Positions 22,598 to 40,982 of a stretch of DNA of 64,000 bases are shown here, piece after piece (within the stretch, counting starts at the first letter, position 1; every line of letters begins with the position of its first letter). This DNA comes from Promethearchaeota archaeon. GTDB lineage: Archaea; Asgardarchaeota; Lokiarchaeia; Sigynarchaeales; SOKP01. The stretch is from assembly GCA_019058515.1 (NCBI GenBank), contig JAHPYY010000111.1, forward strand, positions 1 to 64,000. The letters are read 5' to 3'. Position numbers and translations under genes: made by a program. The notes below the pieces were generated by a model. The model was not told the DNA's origin. It did no database searches and worked only from the letters and a program-made list of their open reading frames with translations.

Positions 22598-24076
22598 TTA
22601 ATGGCGAATAGGATGTCCTTTCTTATGCACTGCCATTCCTACGACATCTTCAGCGCCTTCAAGAACCATTTCCGAAATCGTCGGATGACTATGGATCGTC
22701 TCAGCTATATCGTGTACCGTCAAACCGTGTTTCATTGCTAGCGCAACTTCGGCAATCAATTCAGGAGCTTCAGCACCTATGCACGAAGCACCTACAATTT
22801 TATGGTTCTCCTTATTTGCTAAGATTAAAATGAAGCCATCTTCGTGACCTGCACATTTTGCTTTTCCCAAAGCCGCGAAAGGGAATCTTCCCATTAGTAA
22901 ATCTATGCCTAACATCTTAGCTTGTTTTCTCCTAATACCCACTGAACCTATGTTTGGATTAGTAAAGATCGTAGCAGGAACGACAGTATAGTCGGGAGTT
23001 GTGGGCTCGATGGAAAATCCTCCAATGCTAGCAAGTGCATTAGCTACTGCGATATCTCCTTCATAGGAAGCTACATGAGCAAGCATTATACCTCCCGTTA
23101 CATCCCCAATCGCATATATTCCAGGAACAGCGGTTTCTAAGGTTTTCTGACTTACTTTGATCGCTCCTCTCTCCATCTCAATACCCATTTCTTCTAATCC
23201 AAGATTTTTCGACTCTTTAGCTCTACCTATTGACACTAAACAGTAATCTGCTTCAAAATAGGATTTTTCCGCTGTTTCTATTTGATCTCGTGGCACATCT
23301 GCAGAACAAGTTGTAGCTTTAACTCCTGTGCCTGTGTTATCCACAGATAGCACATTCTGAGAAACATGAATCTCTACACCAAGCGAATTGAGCTTTTTTT
23401 GTAGTTCCTTAACTAGCATCGGTTCTTCGGTAGCAATTGGCGAATCTAAATATTCTAACATGATAACCTTGCTTCCAAATGTTGCGAAAATGTTTGCAAA
23501 TTCACAGCCTATTACACCAGCTCCAATAACGAGCAGTCGTTTGGGAACAACCTTAAAATTAGGATCTAGAATATCGTCACTTGTTAAGATTCGTTGGTGA
23601 TCAATGTTAAATGCTGGTATTAACGCAGGAGAGGATCCTGTCGCAAGAAGTACTCGTTTTGTCTTAATAGTTTTAGCCTCTTCACCCTCAATTGAGATAT
23701 CAAACCCGTCATTGACATTTCCTCCCATTAACTTTCCATAACCCATATACACATCGTTTTTCCAAGCTTTTTGAAGTCCTGCTATTCCTTCTACCAATTC
23801 CTTAACCACTTTATTTTTTCTCTCAACTGCTTTTGCGAAATCAAGTTTAGGTTCGCACATCACACCAAATTCGTTACCATGCTCTCTTAAATTTTGGATC
23901 ATTTCGGATGAAGCGTATAGGGCTTTTGTAGGGATACACCCCCAGTTTAAACACGTACCGCCCAAGTTTTTCTTTTCGATTAATGCCACCTTCGCGCCAT
24001 ATTGTGCTGCTCTTATCGCAGCGTGATATCCTCCAGGTCCAGCACCAATGACTGCGATATCGTACATTTCACTCAT
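22598..24076 (-). CDS. lpdA: Dihydrolipoyl dehydrogenase
   Basis: A 492-residue FAD disulfide oxidoreductase that reoxidises dihydrolipoyl groups with NAD+. Seen: the FAD-binding GAGPGGYHAAIRAA, the redox-active pair in GGTCLNWGCIPTK (C42, C47), the NAD loop VIGAGVIGCEFANIF, the second FAD motif YAIGDVTGG, and the interface catalytic dyad HSHPTISE (His464, Glu469). An insert of about 20 residues near 255-275 explains the slightly long length. No 2-oxoacid dehydrogenase or glycine cleavage gene is adjacent in the window. Confidence 0.95.
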   Translation of the reverse strand: MSEMYDIAVIGAGPGGYHAAIRAAQYGAKVALIEKKNLGGTCLNWGCIPTKALYASSEMIQNLREHGNEFGVMCEPKLDFAKAVERKNKVVKELVEGIAGLQKAWKNDVYMGYGKLMGGNVNDGFDISIEGEEAKTIKTKRVLLATGSSPALIPAFNIDHQRILTSDDILDPNFKVVPKRLLVIGAGVIGCEFANIFATFGSKVIMLEYLDSPIATEEPMLVKELQKKLNSLGVEIHVSQNVLSVDNTGTGVKATTCSADVPRDQIETAEKSYFEADYCLVSIGRAKESKNLGLEEMGIEMERGAIKVSQKTLETAVPGIYAIGDVTGGIMLAHVASYEGDIAVANALASIGGFSIEPTTPDYTVVPATIFTNPNIGSVGIRRKQAKMLGIDLLMGRFPFAALGKAKCAGHEDGFILILANKENHKIVGASCIGAEAPELIAEVALAMKHGLTVHDIAETIHSHPTISEMVLEGAEDVVGMAVHKKGHPIRH

Positions 24077-26043: not shown

Positions 26044-28242
26044 ATGGCTAGAAAAAAAGATAAAGATAAGAAAAAGCCAGAAGAAACTAAAGGCGCATAC
26101 GGCTGGGGAGAAGAAGAGAAAACCGAAGAACTTGCTGCTGAAGGATTAAAAAGAACAGATATGGATGAAGGAAGAGTAGAACTCGTCGATAGAGATTTAT
26201 CTACTCCAGTAATTGAGACTTACGATAAAGATACTGGAGAAATTGAAGGTGCAGTTTTACTAAAAGACGGAAATCGAGAAGGATTACTGGCACAAGTGAA
26301 GATAATCGAAGAGGTGAGCGTAGAGCAAGACCACTACGCCAGTCTTGAATCAATAGGCTTTAACGGTAAATTAAATGTAGAAAATCCGAGTTCGAAGGAT
26401 AGATTATGGGATATAGACATTAAGCTTAAAAACATCGAATCTACCAATCTAAAATCAGACGAGATCTCAATTAGAGAACTTGGAGTTGATGAGGACGACA
26501 ATGTAGATTCTCGGGAATTTGAAATAACTGGTGAAGCGAAAAACTTACTGTTAATTAAAGAATTTATCAATACATTACCTAATGCAGATGATATTCTAAA
26601 TATTAGCGACATCGAAACCGAATTATTAAAAATTAGGGATAAAACCAGCGAAGACGTTAAAATCACGAAAAAAGAAACTTATAGTGAAGATGAGGAGGAG
26701 GAGGAAGAAGAGGACGAGGATTACGACGCGGGAGCGGAAGAATATAGCTTAGAATCTTACGGAATATCTATTGATAAAGAAAATACAGTAACATTCGCTA
26801 TAGCTATGAGGAGTTTGTTTGAAAAACCACTTGCAAATGTTAAGGTTACGAAAACCATCCTAAACGAGTTCGATAAACCAAGAATTGTGGATACTACAAT
26901 AGGTAAAGCCGATCAAGAAGGAGACACGATTGTCTGGACTATAGATCGCCTTGAACCAGAAACCACTGCGCTATTGAAGTTTACTTGTACAATCACAGTT
27001 AACGATATCGATGCTCGAAAAACGGGACCAATTGAAGTAGAGTATCAAGCCGCTTCCTCGTTTGCTGGAGGGATGGAAATTGATCAATTCGACGCATATA
27101 CGAGAAATCGATTTTACGTAGAAAAAGTGGAACGAGACGAGGAACCTGGCGTATGGGACTGTAAACTAGTCTTTGCAAATACCTCCGAGTTTATTTTGGG
27201 ACTTTTTAACGCAGATGTATACGCCACTGACGATGCATCCACCAAATTTGTCGACATTGATCCCGAAGAAGTACCAAGGCTACCTGCAGGTGCAGAGTGG
27301 CATTCCACTAAATGGCAATACGAAAGCGATGATTTTCCCCAGTTTAGAAAGAAAATAGAATTCAGAGTCGTACCTGATTTTCAAACCATTGTAAACGGGG
27401 CTATAAGCATTGGAGAAGTGGAGCTTGCGATCGCTAGCATCACCGGCTCAGTAGTGTATAGCCTTAAAGAAGAAATTCCTGAGAGAGAAGAAGAAGCTGA
27501 AGAAGTCGAAGAAGCACCCCTTATTATTGTACCTACCTTTAAAGAACAGAATGTCTGGGCTTCACTAAAGATGGCAAATAACGGTTCAGCTCCATTAAAC
27601 GAGGTTTCAATTGTACAACAATTTTTCACGGATGAGTTCCAACCACCCAACTCAGATGAAATAAAATTAATTTGGAACGGGGGAGAAGTGGAATTAGATT
27701 CCTCCGCAGTTAGCACGGGAGGAAACGAACTCAGAATAGAGCTCACCGACCTTAAAGATTCCAGTACGGGCATGCTTGACCCAGAAGGCGAAATTGAATT
27801 TCAATATCCGATTCATTCAATTAATCCTGCAGTAGAATCCCGGTTCGAGTCAGAAATAGTGTATGTTGCAAATACATTTCCACAATCCGAAGAACTTGAA
27901 TTTCGACCGGTCGTTCCAATCATCGAGGCAGTACATATACGTCGCAAATTTCGTGTTGGAAAGGAAGTGGTTCCAATCTCAAGCCTCGGAGACTACCAAA
28001 TTATACTTTATGTTGAGAATATCTCCGAGAGCCCACTTGAAAATTTCGTCCTATTAGATAAAGTGCCTGATAATTTTGAATACGGGGATTATTCAGTTGA
28101 ACCTGAAATAACCGATGAAGTCGGCTCTGATACCCTTAAGTGGGAATTAGATCCATTAGAAGAAGGCGATAAATTGGAAATCACTTACGAGATTCACGGC
28201 AAGGGCGATTACAAACCATCCGATGCGCAAGTAGCGTATTAA
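26044..28242 (+). CDS. Acidic multidomain protein with Ig-like/DUF11-like beta-sandwich repeats
   Basis: A 732-residue protein with no signal peptide and no transmembrane helix. It starts with a Lys-rich stretch (residues 1-20), then acidic linkers, including a run of Asp/Glu near 215-230 and another near 485-500. At least three beta-sandwich units recur with patterns of the type VTFAIAMRSLFEKPLANVKV, WASLKMANNGSAPLNEVSI and IILYVENISESPLENFVLLD. Each is followed by a GDTIVWTIDRLEPE-type turn, resembling the DUF11/CARDB fold usual in exported adhesins. Its lack of export signals implies a cytoplasmic scaffold or an unrecognised secretion route. Function unknown. Confidence 0.8.
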   Translation: MARKKDKDKKKPEETKGAYGWGEEEKTEELAAEGLKRTDMDEGRVELVDRDLSTPVIETYDKDTGEIEGAVLLKDGNREGLLAQVKIIEEVSVEQDHYASLESIGFNGKLNVENPSSKDRLWDIDIKLKNIESTNLKSDEISIRELGVDEDDNVDSREFEITGEAKNLLLIKEFINTLPNADDILNISDIETELLKIRDKTSEDVKITKKETYSEDEEEEEEEDEDYDAGAEEYSLESYGISIDKENTVTFAIAMRSLFEKPLANVKVTKTILNEFDKPRIVDTTIGKADQEGDTIVWTIDRLEPETTALLKFTCTITVNDIDARKTGPIEVEYQAASSFAGGMEIDQFDAYTRNRFYVEKVERDEEPGVWDCKLVFANTSEFILGLFNADVYATDDASTKFVDIDPEEVPRLPAGAEWHSTKWQYESDDFPQFRKKIEFRVVPDFQTIVNGAISIGEVELAIASITGSVVYSLKEEIPEREEEAEEVEEAPLIIVPTFKEQNVWASLKMANNGSAPLNEVSIVQQFFTDEFQPPNSDEIKLIWNGGEVELDSSAVSTGGNELRIELTDLKDSSTGMLDPEGEIEFQYPIHSINPAVESRFESEIVYVANTFPQSEELEFRPVVPIIEAVHIRRKFRVGKEVVPISSLGDYQIILYVENISESPLENFVLLDKVPDNFEYGDYSVEPEITDEVGSDTLKWELDPLEEGDKLEITYEIHGKGDYKPSDAQVAY

Positions 28243-28748: not shown

Positions 28749-30068
28749 ATGATCCGAAAAAGATTTCACTTAGACTGGATTTTCGAGTGTTCCGACGCAG
28801 TACTTGCCTGCTCGGCTCTACGATACAAGAATAAGGAATATTTGGTGTTTGGAGGACACGATAAAACCCTTTACTTGATGGATACAGAAGAAGGAATGGA
28901 AATTATTGACGAGGTGAACTTCGACGGCTGGGTTCGATGCATTTATGTAATTGACATAGATAGAGACAATAACCAAGAAGTACTGGTTGGTTCTGGCGAT
29001 GGAAGCTTCTTAGTAGTGAAAAACGATACCACTACTGACAAATTCGTAGGAATTCTAAGGTATCATTCAGATGGAAAAGTTCTTTGTTGTACAGCCGGCG
29101 AATTTGCAAATAATGGAGAGGTTCAGTTAATTTTTGGAGGAGAAGATAAAACTTTAAAAATTTTTAGCAGTATAGAGTCCAAAAATCCAGATTTTACGCT
29201 ATATTACGATTCTTGGGTAACTGTTTGCGCGTTGGGACACCTAAAGCTACCAGACTCTAGAAAACCTCAACTATGTTTAATTGTGGGAACTAAAACGGGA
29301 ATTCTTCAAGTAATTCGCATGATCGATGGTAAACCGGATATTTGTTGGCAGCGAGATTTCAACTCACAAATTAATGTGATCCAAATTGGTGATGTGGCAC
29401 ACGATGGTTACAACGAAATTGTGTTAGCAACAGACGATTCATATATCAAAATAATTGATTCATTAGGTAAAAACCTTAAATACATTAAAGTACATAACGG
29501 TCGTCCTTTATCGATCGTTATTGAAGATGTGGATGGTGATAACGCCAATGAAATTATTGCGGGTTGCGCCGACGGATCGCTTAAGGTGTACGAAAACACT
29601 TCCAAGGATTCTACGGATTTTCGCCTAAAATGGAAAACTAAAGTGTCTACTTCCATAAAGGATATGTTCATTATCGACGATTCAGTAGGAGGGATAAAGC
29701 ACATTATTTTTGGGGGATACGATAGGACTATAAGACAAGTTACGGATTTTGAATGGGGAAAGAAACCTACACTTGATGTTCCAAAGTACATCGAACCACC
29801 TAAAGTATCTAACGCTCAAAAAAGAAGAGATGCGAAAAGAGAAAGAAAATTAAAACCAATTCCCACGAATTTAAGGGGTTTTATAATAGGTATTTTCAAA
29901 AAACACAAATTTTTAAACTCTTTAGATGTTCTCAAGCAAGAGTTAAGTGATATAGGATATTCGGATGATGTTATAAAAAATGAGATCGAGATATTAAAAT
30001 CTGAAGATCATATTAAACAAGAAGAACAGAATCTGAAAGTTTGGGTTATAAACAAGGATTTGGTTTAA
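28749..30068 (+). CDS. FG-GAP/WD-like beta-propeller protein with C-terminal basic linker and helical domain
   Basis: 439 residues. Residues 1-340 hold about seven repeats of the form [strand]-GGxDKTLxxx (for example FGGHDKTLYLMD, FGGEDKTLKIFS, FGGYDRTIRQV). Asp-rich loops DIDRDNNQE, DVAHDGYNE and DVDGDNANE look like the calcium loops of FG-GAP/integrin-type propellers. Residues 350-370 are a strongly basic linker and 375-439 look like a winged-helix or small helical domain. No export signal, so likely a cytoplasmic scaffold, perhaps nucleic-acid linked. The architecture recalls eukaryotic trafficking propellers (BBS-like), but this is fold-level similarity only. Confidence 0.75.
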   Translation: MIRKRFHLDWIFECSDAVLACSALRYKNKEYLVFGGHDKTLYLMDTEEGMEIIDEVNFDGWVRCIYVIDIDRDNNQEVLVGSGDGSFLVVKNDTTTDKFVGILRYHSDGKVLCCTAGEFANNGEVQLIFGGEDKTLKIFSSIESKNPDFTLYYDSWVTVCALGHLKLPDSRKPQLCLIVGTKTGILQVIRMIDGKPDICWQRDFNSQINVIQIGDVAHDGYNEIVLATDDSYIKIIDSLGKNLKYIKVHNGRPLSIVIEDVDGDNANEIIAGCADGSLKVYENTSKDSTDFRLKWKTKVSTSIKDMFIIDDSVGGIKHIIFGGYDRTIRQVTDFEWGKKPTLDVPKYIEPPKVSNAQKRRDAKRERKLKPIPTNLRGFIIGIFKKHKFLNSLDVLKQELSDIGYSDDVIKNEIEILKSEDHIKQEEQNLKVWVINKDLV

Positions 30069-36300: not shown

Positions 36301-36876
36301 ATGGGATTTCTAAAGATAAATTTTGAGGACATTTCCTTTAGTCCTCAAACTCAAGAGATGTGCGTATCATCGAGTTTTAAGTGTCCGTTTTACGAACACT
36401 CCTGGAGTTGTCCTCCCGCAGCACCTTATTTGGAAAAACAGGTTTCTACTTATAAAGACTACTTCCTAGTGTATTCTCAGTTTGATTTAGAGGAGTATAT
36501 AAAAAAAGAAAGAGAGAAGAATCCAAAAAGATCGGAGTTTTACATTAAAAATACCTATTTCTTAAAAAGCGTAATGACCAATCTGTTGGATAAAGAATTT
36601 AACGAACTCTTGAGCCATTTCAATAAAGTTTTTAGAAAGAAATTACTTCTATATTACGGAACTTGTAATTTTTGCCACATACAATCCGCAGGGAAGTGTA
36701 CCTATGATGATGGAGTCCCTTGTCGATTTCCTAAGGATCGCAGGTATTCAATGGAAGCTGTAGGAATAGAAGTTATTAAAACCGTATTAGAGTTAAAAAA
36801 AAAGGGAATTGAGTTAGGTTTTGAGTATCCTTCAAGCAAATACGATTACAAATTTGGATTAGCGTGCTTCAAATAA
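36301..36876 (+). CDS. DUF2284 family cysteine-rich metal-binding protein
   Basis: 191 residues. Two Cys sets: C21-X6-C28-X8-C37 followed by PPAAPYLEK, and C122-X2-C125-X7-C133-X7-C141, then the conserved RRYSMEAVGIEV. DUF2284 proteins are annotated as predicted metal binding; the Cys number would allow an Fe-S cluster or redox metal site. A second member at 38480-39022 has the same N-terminal Cys positions. They bracket an HxlR regulator and a Cys-rich micropeptide, suggesting one redox or metal-response locus (inference). Confidence 0.85.
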   Translation: MGFLKINFEDISFSPQTQEMCVSSSFKCPFYEHSWSCPPAAPYLEKQVSTYKDYFLVYSQFDLEEYIKKEREKNPKRSEFYIKNTYFLKSVMTNLLDKEFNELLSHFNKVFRKKLLLYYGTCNFCHIQSAGKCTYDDGVPCRFPKDRRYSMEAVGIEVIKTVLELKKKGIELGFEYPSSKYDYKFGLACFK

Positions 36877-36893
36877 TAAATTGAGTTGGTAGT

Positions 36894-37577
36894 TTAAATA
36901 ACTTTTACCTTCGGATAAGGATTTTTCTGGATATTATAAGCAAACCCCGCTATGATTGTGTAGATCATAAGACTAAGGTCAATTAGACCAGTTGTGGTCA
37001 AAAAATCAACAGCTTCAATCGGAGTCAAAAAGGGTACCCCAAACATCCCTCCCATAATGGTAAGTACAAAAATGATAGTTGATACTACTATACTTATAAG
37101 CCAAGATTTGGAGATATAGGTGCCTGCGCTTCCAGAAAACATTTTTCTCCAGAATTTCAAGGGTTTATTGATAGTTATCGCTACGACGCTTATTAACACC
37201 CCAAGCATGAAGAAGGCTATTCCACCTCCAAACAAGAGTTGGGTTATTTGAAGAATTAGCAATCCTAGTGCTCCATATTTCCTATCTACGAATTTTAAAG
37301 ACCAAATTATAACCAAGATGCCAATTATTATCGCAATTATACCAGTTACGAGAAAGTTGGGAATCAAGGTCAAAGCCATTTCACCTCCCTCTTCCCAATA
37401 ACCTTGACCAGGCGCGATTGCATCTATTACTATACCATTCGTAGCAATATTGCCTTGTAGAACCTCGAAAAAACCGTGTTCCATACTTATAAAACCCCCA
37501 ACAACTCCTATGGTTGAAACATTTATTTTAGTTGCATTGGGAGTAGATATTTCATATTCTGAAACTTCTGACAGCAT
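36894..37577 (-). CDS. Polytopic membrane protein of unknown function
   Basis: 227 residues with about five hydrophobic helices from residue 72 on, preceded by a polar N-terminal region rich in Thr/Asn/Gly that could be extracellular. No transporter motif recognised. It lies between the first DUF2284 gene and the HxlR regulator. Confidence 0.65.
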   Translation of the reverse strand: MLSEVSEYEISTPNATKINVSTIGVVGGFISMEHGFFEVLQGNIATNGIVIDAIAPGQGYWEEGGEMALTLIPNFLVTGIIAIIIGILVIIWSLKFVDRKYGALGLLILQITQLLFGGGIAFFMLGVLISVVAITINKPLKFWRKMFSGSAGTYISKSWLISIVVSTIIFVLTIMGGMFGVPFLTPIEAVDFLTTTGLIDLSLMIYTIIAGFAYNIQKNPYPKVKVI

Positions 37578-37795
37578 TTATCGCATCTTTGTAACTTTCG
37601 ATTTCTGAAATTTAAAAGGTGAAGAGAATTTCCTTTGAGAATTTTAAGATTAAATGTTTATATTAATATAATGGGAGCCAATAATTGATTTTTAAGAGAG
37701 TTTAAATCAATCATGCAGGAGAAAAGGATAAAATAAGAATGCAAGTTTAATTAACCCTAACAAGTCAAAAAGCGCTGTGTTTAGAGGCTGCTAAC

Positions 37796-38158
37796 TTAAA
37801 TATTACTACATGACTCTTTTTTAGATACCCACTTCATAAGCGGTATCATTGCTTCTCTCACTTCAAATCCGTCCTGAGTTAACGAATATTCAACCCTAGG
37901 AGGAATTTCTGGAAATATCTCTTTTTTTACAAGACCAGCGTCGTTCAATTCTGTTAATCTATCGGATAAGGTTGTTGGATTAATAGTTTTTAAATTCTTC
38001 ATGATTTCGTTAAATCTAATTTTCTCGTGGTTTCCAATCAAACCTATGATGAGAAGAGCCCATTTCTTTGATAATAATTTGATGATACCTTCAATAGAGC
38101 ACAAACAAATTTCATTATCAGCAGTTATCTGGCAAAAATTATCGCTATCTTTTTTCAT
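37796..38158 (-). CDS. HxlR-family transcriptional regulator
   Basis: A 120-residue winged-helix protein of HxlR type. Its core is GIIKLLSKKWALLIIGLI, then KIRFNEIMKNLKTINPTTLSDRL (recognition helix) and the wing VEYSLTQDGFEV. Cysteines at positions 9, 18 and 20, and C117 near the end, fit thiol-based sensing as in YodB/HypR-type members. It is divergent from a Cys-rich micropeptide gene with a perfect palindrome between them, its likely operator. Confidence 0.92.
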   Translation of the reverse strand: MKKDSDNFCQITADNEICLCSIEGIIKLLSKKWALLIIGLIGNHEKIRFNEIMKNLKTINPTTLSDRLTELNDAGLVKKEIFPEIPPRVEYSLTQDGFEVREAMIPLMKWVSKKESCSNI

Positions 38159-38228
38159 AGTTACTTTCTTTATTTGTAGTCTCTATGAAGAAATTGACTT
38201 ACTAATTTAAATACTTTATTATGTATAA

Positions 38229-38249
38229 TTACTATAAAAAATATAGTAA
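38229..38249. promoter_or_regulatory. Perfect palindrome, probable HxlR operator
   Basis: Arms TTACTATA and TATAGTAA, 8 bp each, separated by AAAAA. It contains the TACT...AGTA halves typical of HxlR/YodB-type operators, though with a wider spacer. It lies 14 bases before the micropeptide ATG and 70 bases from the hxlR start, so binding could control both genes. A TTTAAATA box lies just upstream (about 38207-38214). Confidence 0.55.
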
Positions 38250-38262
38250 AAAAGATATAAAA

Positions 38263-38376
38263 ATGGCTGACTTAAAAATGGAAGAAAGTGAATGCTGTTG
38301 CGGTTGCGGAGGAGTAAAGAATCAAGAAATTGAATCTGAAAGCTCTAAAGAAGACGACACTTCATGTTGCAATTAA
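38263..38376 (+). CDS. Cysteine-rich micropeptide, 37 aa
   Basis: ATG to TAA, 37 residues. C11, C12, C13 and C15 with intervening Gly form a dense thiol cluster, a Glu/Ser-rich linker follows, and C35-C36 lie before the final Asn. Low hydrophobicity, very acidic. The pattern suggests a metallothionein-like chelator or thiol substrate. Being divergent from a Cys-containing HxlR regulator, with an operator-like palindrome just before its start, argues that it is a real gene. Too short for most gene callers. Function unproven. Confidence 0.6.
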   Translation: MADLKMEESECCCGCGGVKNQEIESESSKEDDTSCCN

Positions 38377-38479
38377 AAAAAGCTAAAACTATTTGGTAAA
38401 AAGGATTAGAATTCAAAAAATTTCAATTCAAAGCGTCTTAGATTGCAATATCTAAGAAACTGCTACTTTTTTTGTTTCT

Positions 38480-39022
38480 TTAGTTTCGAGAATTTTTAAC
38501 GCAAATCAAACCAAAACGAATAACATAATTCTTAGGGGGCCATTCTAAGTCTAGTTCGAGATTTTTTCCCGTTGCGGTTACATTAATTCCTACAGCTTCC
38601 ATAGAGTATCTTAGTTTATTGGGATAACGACAAGGAATGTTTTCCGGGTAAGTACAACTTTTTCCTTCTTTTTCACATATTTGGCAATGTCCTTCCCAGA
38701 GTATTTTTATGGTCTTATTATTTACCTTTAGCTCTTCTGCAAGATTTATAATTTCTTGTTTTAATCCCTCTCTCATTTTCTCCCAATTTCTTAAAGAAGA
38801 ATATTTTTGTCGTTTCATTTCTGCGTCTTTGGGTAGAAATTCTTTTTTATACACTAAATAAAACTTCTCGTAAGACATAATTTCTTTTTCTAAGTAAGGC
38901 GCAACAGGGGGGCAAGCCCAGGATCTCCGATAGTTAGGGCATCTAAACTTTTCATTAACACAATAGGTTTGCACGCTTGGGTCAAATACGATAGAATCCT
39001 TAGTTATCTGTTTCCAGGGCAT
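38480..39022 (-). CDS. DUF2284 family cysteine-rich metal-binding protein (second copy)
   Basis: 180 residues, paralogous to 36301-36876. C21, C28 and C37 are at identical positions, then PPVAPYLEKE, then C113-X2-C116-X6-C123-X7-C131 and LRYSMEAVGINV. The second Cys set differs by one residue in spacing. Same inferred metal or Fe-S binding. It is convergent with the micropeptide and divergent from the C_GCAxxG_C_C gene, keeping all thiol-rich genes together. Confidence 0.85.
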   Translation of the reverse strand: MPWKQITKDSIVFDPSVQTYCVNEKFRCPNYRRSWACPPVAPYLEKEIMSYEKFYLVYKKEFLPKDAEMKRQKYSSLRNWEKMREGLKQEIINLAEELKVNNKTIKILWEGHCQICEKEGKSCTYPENIPCRYPNKLRYSMEAVGINVTATGKNLELDLEWPPKNYVIRFGLICVKNSRN

Positions 39023-39102
39023 ATAATAGTAGAAAAATAATAGTTAAATAAGTTTAATCCAATAATTATATACCAATTAAATTCAACGGAAGATTAAATA
39101 AA

Positions 39103-39618
39103 ATGAGTATAGATAAGGAAAATATTATAAATAAAGCATTTGAACTAGGAAAAAAATACGAGAAAAAGAATACAGGTTGCGCTCAGACAGCAATTGCGGC
39201 AATTTTTGACGCGTTAGGAATTTGGAACGAAGATGTCTTTAAAGCTGGCTCGGGACTGGCAGATGGATTAGGATTAACGGGAGATGGAACATGCGGTGCT
39301 CTTACAGGAGGTTCTATGGTTATTGGATACCTCTTTGGTCGAGAACATAAAGATTTTGGCGATATGATGAAACCGATGAAGTCCTACGCTTTAGCGAAAA
39401 AGTTACATGATATGTACGTTAAAAAGTATGGTTCTTGCCGATGTTACGATGTCCAAGAGTCATTGGTAGGGAGAACTTATAATTTGTGGGACGAACAGGA
39501 GCTTAAGGAAGCCTTTTCTTCAGGAATGATGGAGCATTGTTCAACACTAGTTGGAACTATTGCAAAGTTCGCTACCAAAATCATCTTAGGAGCAGGATTC
39601 AAACCGACAATAGAATAA
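39103..39618 (+). CDS. C_GCAxxG_C_C family redox-type protein
   Basis: 171 residues with the family pattern: C26 in TGCAQTAIAAI, C64 in GTCGALTGG, C112 and C114 in GSCRCYDVQ, and C146 near the end. The family is thought to be redox-active or Fe-S binding with a possible membrane-facing helix. It lies 80 bases from the second DUF2284 gene, divergent. Confidence 0.88.
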   Translation: MSIDKENIINKAFELGKKYEKKNTGCAQTAIAAIFDALGIWNEDVFKAGSGLADGLGLTGDGTCGALTGGSMVIGYLFGREHKDFGDMMKPMKSYALAKKLHDMYVKKYGSCRCYDVQESLVGRTYNLWDEQELKEAFSSGMMEHCSTLVGTIAKFATKIILGAGFKPTIE

Positions 39619-39812
39619 CTTAGAATTAGTTGATTTATTCACAAAAGTAGTCGTAAAACTTAAATTGGTCGATTAACGCGCTGCAATAAGGTAATAAACC
39701 ATAAACTTAAATTTATGAAATTTACCTAAATTATATCGTTTTAATTAAAAATTTTTTAAACAACTATTTGTTATTTATCTTAATCTAAAAATTATAAAGT
39801 GATTTAATAGCA

Positions 39813-40055
39813 ATGACTGAAGAAACTCGTACATGCCCCTTCTGTGGAAAAACACACTTGAAACATCCGTATTGGACGCACGTTCAACAGAATCACCCGG
39901 AGGAATACAAAAAGAAACAGACATGGATACAACTTTACAAGGATTATCGAGCTATGGGAATGGATCCCGAGATATGCTTTACAGTAATTGGAGAATTATT
40001 TAACTCCGAAGCTAATGAAGTTAAATTCTTTTTAGAGCAAAACGACGCTTTATGA
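39813..40055 (+). CDS. C2H2-like zinc-finger small protein, 80 aa
   Basis: 80 residues. CPFCGKTHLKHPYWTHVQQNH gives C8-X2-C11 and two His in a following helix, as in a C2H2 finger. The rest is helical with one further Cys. Possibly a nucleic-acid or protein binder; unknown family. Monocistronic. Confidence 0.7.
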   Translation: MTEETRTCPFCGKTHLKHPYWTHVQQNHPEEYKKKQTWIQLYKDYRAMGMDPEICFTVIGELFNSEANEVKFFLEQNDAL

Positions 40056-40691
40056 AATTTTTATTTTTGTCTAATTTCTTTTGAATTTAGCTTTGAAACA
40101 CGCTACTTAACGATAGTTCGTAAAAAAGTTTTAAATAAATTTCAAGCTTCTCGTCTTCTGCTTTTAAAAATCCAGATAATTGAAGTATGTTTTTGAAGGT
40201 ATTCCTATTTCTTTTAAAATTCCCATATGGTAAAGAATTAACTTGGAAATATAACACCTAATTATCTTGTCGTATCTCTTATTTTTAGGGTTTTATTTAA
40301 AGTGTAGAAGCAAAGAGTAATAAGAAACGATAATGATATAACTCCCATAAGATTGCTCGTAATTAATTGTATAGGTGAAGCTGTAGAGAATGAAAATGGG
40401 CTAATGTCTGATAGATAAAAAAAAATTGAGACGATTCCTGAAACTACTATAATAAATAACCATTAAAAAGTGGTGCAAAGACAAAACACAATAAGTATAA
40501 AATAACATACATTAGAAAAGAATGCCTATTTGGAAATTTTTTGCGTTTCTTTATGGTTCTTGATTTATTATTGGACCGCTCCACAAATTTTTTTTAGAAT
40601 GAAGGGTATTTAAGCGTTATCTATTCACATTTTTCCCCATTGTTAGGTTTTAAAAAAAGCAAGTAAAAAAATTAAAAAATTTAATTAAGAA
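40056..40691. other. Long intergenic region, one doubtful small frame
   Basis: 636 bases, very AT-rich, with no recognised gene, RNA or repeat apart from the 56-codon minus-strand frame listed separately. The overall look is of decayed sequence. Confidence 0.5.
40087..40257 (-). CDS. Doubtful small protein, 56 aa
   Basis: A GTG-started frame of 56 residues that directly follows a TAG stop. The translation (for example NTFKNILQLSGFLKAEDEKL) is amphipathic and protein-like, so it may be the end of a decayed gene. No ribosome site and no domain. Confidence 0.25.
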   Translation of the reverse strand: MLYFQVNSLPYGNFKRNRNTFKNILQLSGFLKAEDEKLEIYLKLFYELSLSSVFQS

Positions 40692-40982
40692 TTAGAATTC
40701 TTCCTCTTCGTCTTCTTCCTTTAACAACCCAGATTGCTTGAGTAAATCTTCTACGGTATCTCTTGCTTTGATAACTTGTTCGTTTTCTTTTAGATTTAAG
40801 TTTTCTATTACACTGTCAGTAAATTCCATGAATTTTTTTATTGAGGTTGACGAGAAATCCGAAACTTTCTCAGATGTTTCTTCGATAAACGAGCGCCCAG
40901 ATTCTCCAAATACATTGCCAACAAAGTCCTTAAAGGCGTTGTTCATTTTGTCCAAAATATTTTCGTTCTTTTCTTCGCTCAT
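40692..40982 (-). CDS. Small acidic helical protein, 96 aa
   Basis: 96 residues, all-helical prediction with amphipathic repeats (KMNNAFKDFVGNVFGESG) and an acidic tail EEDEEEEF. No Cys or motif. Possibly a membrane-surface or coiled-coil protein. Family not recognised. Confidence 0.6.
   Translation of the reverse strand: MSEEKNENILDKMNNAFKDFVGNVFGESGRSFIEETSEKVSDFSSTSIKKFMEFTDSVIENLNLKENEQVIKARDTVEDLLKQSGLLKEEDEEEEF

Follow-up and report, generated by a model that had tools for sequence, protein, structure and literature searches.

We analysed a 64,000-nucleotide (nt) stretch of DNA, hereafter the window, from a Promethearchaeota archaeon of the Lokiarchaeia (GenBank assembly GCA_019058515.1, contig JAHPYY010000111.1, positions 1–64,000), in which several genes for cysteine-rich proteins lie around an HxlR/DUF24-family regulator and a divergently transcribed Cys-rich micropeptide (Table 1). 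An earlier note on this DNA had read five of these genes, encoding two DUF2284 proteins, HxlR, the micropeptide and a C_GCAxxG_C_C protein, as one redox/metal-response locus. Open reading frames (ORFs) were found for all six genes that it had placed there, Pfam confirmed both DUF2284 proteins, HxlR and the C_GCAxxG_C_C protein, and the peptide of 37 residues with six Cys was likewise real. The conserved unit is the divergent pair of hxlR and the micropeptide gene (37796–38376), not the five-gene cluster. A metal/thiol-response element would therefore persist from the earlier reading in this pair, whereas the grouping of five genes into one locus did not hold.

Table 1 Genes and DNA elements around the hxlR–micropeptide pair (aa, amino acids; BRE, B recognition element).
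Feature	Position	Strand	Evidence or remark
DUF2284a, Cys-rich protein	36301–36876	+	PF10050, 88 bits (cut-off 25)
Predicted membrane protein, 227 aa	36894–37577	-	Sequence judged by eye; no family
HxlR/DUF24-family regulator, 120 aa	37796–38158	-	PF01638, 71 bits (cut-off 20.8)
TATA/BRE-like element, TTTAAATACTTTA	38206–38218	.	Possible two-way promoter core; putative promoter role
Palindrome TTACTAT-N7-ATAGTAA, perfect 7 + 7 bp	38229–38249	.	Candidate operator
Cys-rich micropeptide, 37 aa, 6 Cys	38263–38376	+	ORF; divergent peptides in 12/17 CxC-HxlR loci
DUF2284b, Cys-rich protein	38480–39022	-	PF10050, 107 bits (cut-off 25)
C_GCAxxG_C_C protein	39103–39618	+	PF09719, 82.8 bits (cut-off 27)
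Small zinc-finger-like protein, 80 aa	39813–40055	+	Neighbour in 14/30 C_GCAxxG_C_C loci; zf-Di19 below cut-off
96-aa protein	40692–40982	-	Neighbour in 10/30 C_GCAxxG_C_C loci

The divergent hxlR–micropeptide pair

The regulator carries a C9-x8-C18-x-C20 pattern at its N-terminus, ahead of the HxlR winged helix. C18 and C20 were invariant in 30 homologues and C9 was at least 90% conserved; the fourth Cys counted in the earlier note, C117, is present and was unconserved among these homologues. Related regulators also occurred in Methanolobus, Methanohalobium, Methanoperedens and others, and a scan of viral contigs with the HxlR alignment returned no relatives.

We then determined how often such regulators face a micropeptide, defined as a 22–80-codon ORF that lies within 600 nt upstream of hxlR and encodes four or more Cys, including three inside a span of six residues. 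The count covered 62 HxlR matches in 227 Asgard genomes together with the window, two with less than 300 nt upstream being dropped. A divergent Cys-rich micropeptide was found at 12/17 CxC-type Asgard HxlR genes compared to 1/44 of the others (Fisher test, P = 4e−8), and a narrower CxC pattern, omitting the regulator of locus L118, gave 12/16 versus 1/45. All 12 peptides pointed away from hxlR. Shuffled upstream regions yielded a qualifying ORF in 38/3200 cases, so the occurrence of micropeptides at CxC-type genes is more than chance. On the other side of the gene, the 600 nt downstream held qualifying ORFs at 0/16 CxC loci (the set without L118) and at 5/63 loci overall. In a 13th case (L110) the peptide is 35 aa long, carries a Cys-Cys tail and fails the strict rule. 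Separately, one non-CxC HxlR (L094:1195–1848) faced a divergent peptide of another kind (44 aa, 8 Cys).

The window peptide has an ECCCGC core and an SCCN tail, is acidic and contains no F, W, Y or H. Its very small size, richness in Cys, CxC/CC motifs and lack of aromatic residues are metallothionein-like traits; since it matches no metallothionein family, it is proposed here to work like a metallothionein, not to be one. Across 13 aligned peptides, each carrying 4–7 Cys, the Cys at position 15 of the window peptide was invariant, a CxCxC-like core was present in 12/13, and in five the C-terminal Cys-Cys was followed by no more than a single residue (SCCN, SCCE, KCCE, SCC and SCCV). Longer forms had a tail that was charged and looked helical. 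Searching with a profile returned 33 similar proteins at E values up to 1; many duplicated the input or were closely related to it, and 32 had the core pattern. For six of these 33 the longest contig had exactly the length given for one of 119 HxlR homologues with a listed length, in keeping with the pairing. Weak matches to DUF5320 (PF17253, E = 0.023) were seen for 2/12 peptides, probably the long helical-tailed forms; however, the match is too weak for membership, and the window peptide is a short form without the helical tail. A ribosomally synthesised and post-translationally modified peptide (RiPP) precursor was also considered and rejected, as no modifying enzyme was recognised near the peptide in the window, relatives not having been scanned for one.

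The motif AAAGTATTTAA was present in 9/12 HxlR–micropeptide intergenic regions, the window included (shuffle mean 0.04), and 19 copies of ATAGTA were spread over 9/12 of these regions (shuffle mean 5.4). Within 130 nt upstream, ATAGTA occurred at 11/16 CxC-type compared to 6/47 other HxlR genes. The palindrome of the window, whose exact form has a single occurrence in the 64 kb, sits approximately at the transcript start expected for the micropeptide from the TATA-like element. An in-frame ATG upstream of the peptide gene (38221) lies between this element and the candidate operator, and the 37-aa form starting at 38263 is therefore preferred. Related imperfect palindromes were found upstream of other CxC-type HxlR genes. 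When sites were scored out of 14, with the window excluded, CxC loci averaged 11.1, other HxlR genes 10.3 (P = 0.0035) and shuffles 9.2 (standard deviation 0.2), and scores of at least 11 were reached at 13/16 CxC and 21/44 other HxlR genes. Given this distribution, such sites look like family operators that are somewhat stronger at CxC loci.

Metal genes beside related regulators

Among the Asgard relatives, genes linked to metal handling recurred next to hxlR. In L116 the CxC-type hxlR faces a heavy-metal ATPase with an HMA domain (Pfam and NCBIfam), in L118 it faces the start of an ATPase 62% identical to that of L116 and cut by the contig end, and in L117 a CPH-variant hxlR also faces an HMA-domain heavy-metal ATPase. 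ATPases 50–52% identical to that of L116 adjoin MerA-like genes in L223 and L233. The hxlR of L113 faces an FTR1 permease; its sister locus, L114, has the peptide and then a 90% identical FTR1 beyond. A CopD-like gene follows the peptide in L107, L108 and L115, and those of L107 and L115 (the two scanned) fell below the Pfam cut-off. The richest arrangement was found in L106, where hxlR, a thioredoxin-like gene, a MerB-like gene and merA share one strand with gaps of roughly 160–520 nt and the micropeptide is divergent. Here MerA scored 539 bits (cut-off 454), and the MerB-like protein scored 69.7 bits against PF03243 (cut-off 27), yet remained under the NCBIfam cut-offs. The C-terminal residues are SCCIE in MerA of both L106 and L122 and KCCE in the L106 MerB-like protein, resembling the micropeptide ends. 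The genome of L106 encodes another HxlR, in which CPLC stands in place of CxC and whose gene faces thioredoxin-like and MerB-like genes (L119:1083–3190). MerB-family matches occurred in 7/227 Asgard genomes, the position beside HxlR being examined in one of them only (G125).

When the window HxlR was compared to plasmids (tblastn), haloarchaea ranked top, and the six haloarchaeal HxlR proteins viewed first had 43–49% identity to it. The 20 best-scoring plasmid records span many genera, and 16 of them carry hxlR and an annotated merA in divergent orientation, usually 77–78 nt apart. Among the four exceptions, merA was in two pieces in H13 and reduced to a truncated remnant in H7, H3 had just a flavoprotein of 32% identity some 600 nt away, and H20 had none. 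In one Haloarcula marismortui record (L197) merA lay in two pieces, another record of the strain having it intact, and in Natrinema zhouii (L158) the merA beside hxlR was a truncated remnant. Both haloarchaeal MerA proteins scanned passed the MerA equivalog cut-off, a C-terminal Cys-Cys was present in all three MerA proteins read, and CxC was present in all 10 haloarchaeal HxlR proteins tested. These loci thus resemble the window in having an HxlR of the CxC type with a divergent partner, the partner there being merA; apart from one GC-rich, chance-like ORF in L126, no micropeptide passed the strict rule in 10 haloarchaeal regions. In a tree of HxlR proteins the backbone was poorly resolved and the peptide-bearing rows fell into more than one group. 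The rows with haloarchaeal merA grouped together, as did the two rows labelled with an ATPase (L116 and L117).

A proposed metal response and its alternatives

We consider it reasonably likely that HxlR represses the gene of a miniature metallothionein-like peptide and responds to soft metals through its thiols. The pair is probably a heavy-metal alarm and sponge, because the pairing is kept in relatives, some of them near mercury- or copper-type metal genes. Members of the HxlR family are dimers, and in bacteria MerR holds its metal three-coordinate. In the proposed mechanism an HxlR dimer would sit on the palindrome, perhaps with a second site on the hxlR side of the shared TATA-like element, and would block both the hxlR and the micropeptide promoters. 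A soft metal ion, Hg(II), Cu(I) or similar, would be captured by the thiolates of C9, C18 and C20, which, lying near the DNA-binding domain, may hold it three-coordinate as in MerR, and HxlR would leave the DNA. The peptide would then be made in bulk, and metal may be bound by the Cys of its CxCxC core and by the Cys-Cys at its C-terminus. It could act like a small metallothionein or carry metal to a detoxifying enzyme or pump.

Several observations weigh against this proposal. In a Pfam scan of 30 window proteins encoded between 19.3 and 55.8 kb, no metal-resistance gene and no merA beside HxlR was recognised; the flavoprotein at 22598–24076 scored as dihydrolipoyl dehydrogenase and not as MerA. 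Half of the 16 fetched CxC loci, several of the loci being short, matched none of the metal genes tested. L112 had no Cys-rich ORF, its neighbours not having been scanned for families, and a 12.5-kb region of L105, the sister of L106, matched neither MerA nor MerB nor thioredoxin. Apart from L106, no HxlR match was obtained at the 12 Asgard loci that surround the top MerA-like hits, some of them partial or at contig ends. The top 20 plasmid records do not amount to 20 independent cases, as the plasmids are related and H13 and H14 come from the same strain. The peptides reached no Pfam or NCBIfam family over cut-off and had no PDB match, and it is their position and a short motif that speak for a putative common descent. 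Finally, the exact palindrome had no match in the 191 other loci compared, and the operator motif is only modestly stronger at CxC loci than upstream of other HxlR genes.

The peptide might alternatively be a metallochaperone or co-regulator, feeding metal to HxlR, MerA or a pump and not storing it, which we regard as somewhat unlikely. This would fit the low number of Cys per peptide, the resemblance of the Cys-Cys tail (5/13) to that of MerA, and the presence of MerA within the same locus in L106. However, no metal enzyme was recognised near the peptide among the scanned window proteins, and 8/16 CxC loci matched no tested metal gene.

It is unlikely that the pair serves thiol or electrophile stress, with HxlR acting like YodB or HypR and the peptide as a sacrificial thiol buffer. 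The HxlR/DUF24 redox regulators HxlR, YodB and HypR share with the window protein the same domain and an N-terminal Cys before the winged helix, and C20 aligned with the N-terminal Cys of a B. subtilis HxlR chain. Furthermore, the characterised family members described in one paper sense oxidants and electrophiles, namely aldehydes, quinones, diamide and hypochlorite (PMC6943732), which also counts against metal sensing. In comparison to these regulators, however, the window HxlR has three conserved N-terminal Cys, including the CxC. The B. subtilis chain has no Cys opposite C18, making the conserved C18 and C9 extra, and the partners identified for relatives of the window HxlR were metal genes (merA, MerB-like and heavy-metal ATPase genes).

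That the ORF is a leader peptide or attenuator sensing cysteine supply, and not a working protein, appears highly improbable. It is short and Cys-rich, and a same-strand gene comes next in L107, L108 and L115 (CopD-like) and in L114 (FTR1). In the window, however, the next gene lies on the opposite strand, so there is nothing to attenuate. In the peptides of L077 and L078 five of six Cys positions are kept whilst other residues change, with the proportion of nonsynonymous differences (pN 0.19) below that of synonymous differences (pS 0.34) in this single short pair, and Shine-Dalgarno-like GGAGG or GGTGA was seen by eye before several peptide starts.

Neighbouring genes and implications for the HxlR family

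The genes for DUF2284a, DUF2284b and the C_GCAxxG_C_C protein look like chance neighbours of the HxlR–micropeptide pair, and as strands alternate in the window there is no five-gene operon. The earlier note had looked to conservation of the neighbourhood in related genomes. We collected 53 Lokiarchaeal loci by DUF2284 alignment, with flanks of up to 6 kb per side (shorter near contig ends), and searched them with eleven window proteins (tblastn, E = 1e−3). DUF2284 alone matched; HxlR, the C_GCAxxG_C_C protein, the membrane protein (which had no Pfam family over cut-off) and the other tested neighbours gave no match in any of the 53. For DUF2284 the neighbourhood is thus unconserved and the genes are frequent without HxlR. 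Across the 227 Asgard genomes, DUF2284 was present in 101, C_GCAxxG_C_C in 58 (E = 1e−12) and HxlR in 55 (E = 1e−15). Among 16 genomes with a CxC-type HxlR, DUF2284 occurred in at least 10, on the same contig in at least one (~7 kb off), and C_GCAxxG_C_C in seven, on the same contig in none.

The C_GCAxxG_C_C gene opens a separate conserved block with the two small genes to its right. In a comparison of 30 loci of ~3.5 kb, it was accompanied by the zinc-finger-like gene in 14 (12 by clustering) and by the 96-aa gene in 10, always 3′ of it and with strands as at window positions 39103–40982. Although the five genes are physically close in the window and two DUF2284 genes lie close together in L002 too, a single redox/metal-response locus of all five is very improbable indeed, given that none of the 53 DUF2284 loci matched HxlR or C_GCAxxG_C_C, that among the matches listed DUF2284 shared a contig with hxlR in just one of the 16 CxC-HxlR genomes, and that C_GCAxxG_C_C sits in its own block.

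DUF2284 showed a pattern of its own. An alignment of 23 proteins showed no variation at C21, C28, C37, C113, C116, C123 and C131; in a set of 70, C21, C28, C37 and C123 remained invariant and C113, C116 and C131 were at least 90% conserved. The coincidence of C21, C28 and C37 between the two window proteins, pointed out in the earlier note, is therefore real and explained by plain homology. Neighbours were counted at the 52 loci with a match. DUF2284a-type loci (n = 15) contained a URO-D-type methyltransferase in seven cases and a B12-binding protein in six, both absent from the other 37 loci, which contained PurA in 25 and a PHO4 transporter in 21. The adjacency of DUF2284a-type genes to URO-D genes in 7/15 loci suggests a corrinoid-related role, and our guess is that DUF2284 works beside corrinoid methyl transfer. 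In L002 (6001–9439), DUF2284b is followed by a B12-binding-group gene and a URO-D-group gene, then by DUF2284a on the opposite strand. One paper (PMC13188914) lists a selenoprotein that is an arsenite methyltransferase/DUF2284 fusion. The best named matches of DUF2284b were Lokiarchaeota/Promethearchaeota proteins. Fold searches with two models of this protein (predicted local distance difference test, pLDDT, 75 and 91) matched flavin nitroreductases, the methionine-synthase activation domain and CblD/MMACHC only weakly, and PDB sequence searches with DUF2284b and C_GCAxxG_C_C gave no useful match. In other Asgard genomes (for example G142:C79, G007:C5 and G176:C54) DUF2284 genes adjoined each other or a single ORF of ~360 aa contained two matches, and two copies may therefore pair.

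Further from the pair, a 439-aa protein (28749–30068) matched the beta-propeller of BBS7 (E = 3e−16, 59.9 bits, cut-off 27), a family known from eukaryotic cilia, and the gene at 26044–28242 weakly matched an adaptor-complex medium subunit (28.9 bits versus a cut-off of 31.6).

Metal-sensing repressors accompanied by a small Cys-rich metal-binding protein are known from cyanobacteria (SmtB–SmtA, also divergent) and mycobacteria (RicR–MymT). The proposed pair resembles them in joining a repressor with a small Cys-rich protein; however, those regulators belong to the ArsR and CsoR families, whereas here the regulator is of the HxlR family and the peptide falls in no described metallothionein family. 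In Sulfolobus, the merRHAI operon similarly places an archaeal mercury response under a repressor, with a regulator termed MerR and a TRASH-domain MerH, whereas HxlR is unmentioned in the consulted part of that text (PMC3600143). The open-access literature searched, most subscription papers being outside its scope, contained nothing linking HxlR with metallothionein and no archaeal metallothionein; nor did any paper join HxlR, mercury, regulator and merA, or HxlR, metal-responsive and cysteine-rich, or DUF24, HypR, YodB and conserved cysteine. To our knowledge, the sensing of mercury and other soft metals in archaea outside Sulfolobus is little studied. We put forward, tentatively and with less than even confidence, that HxlR regulators with a three-Cys soft-metal site make up a widespread archaeal class of unrecognised mercury/copper-type metal sensors, which would control haloarchaeal merA and, in Asgard archaea, heavy-metal ATPases or a new family of micro-metallothioneins; those peptides that have a Cys-Cys tail would pass Hg(II) on in the style of the MerA tail. 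If true, haloarchaeal merA would gain a regulator, a family of regulators known to respond to electrophiles would extend to metal sensing, and Asgard archaea would gain candidate metallothionein-like peptides.

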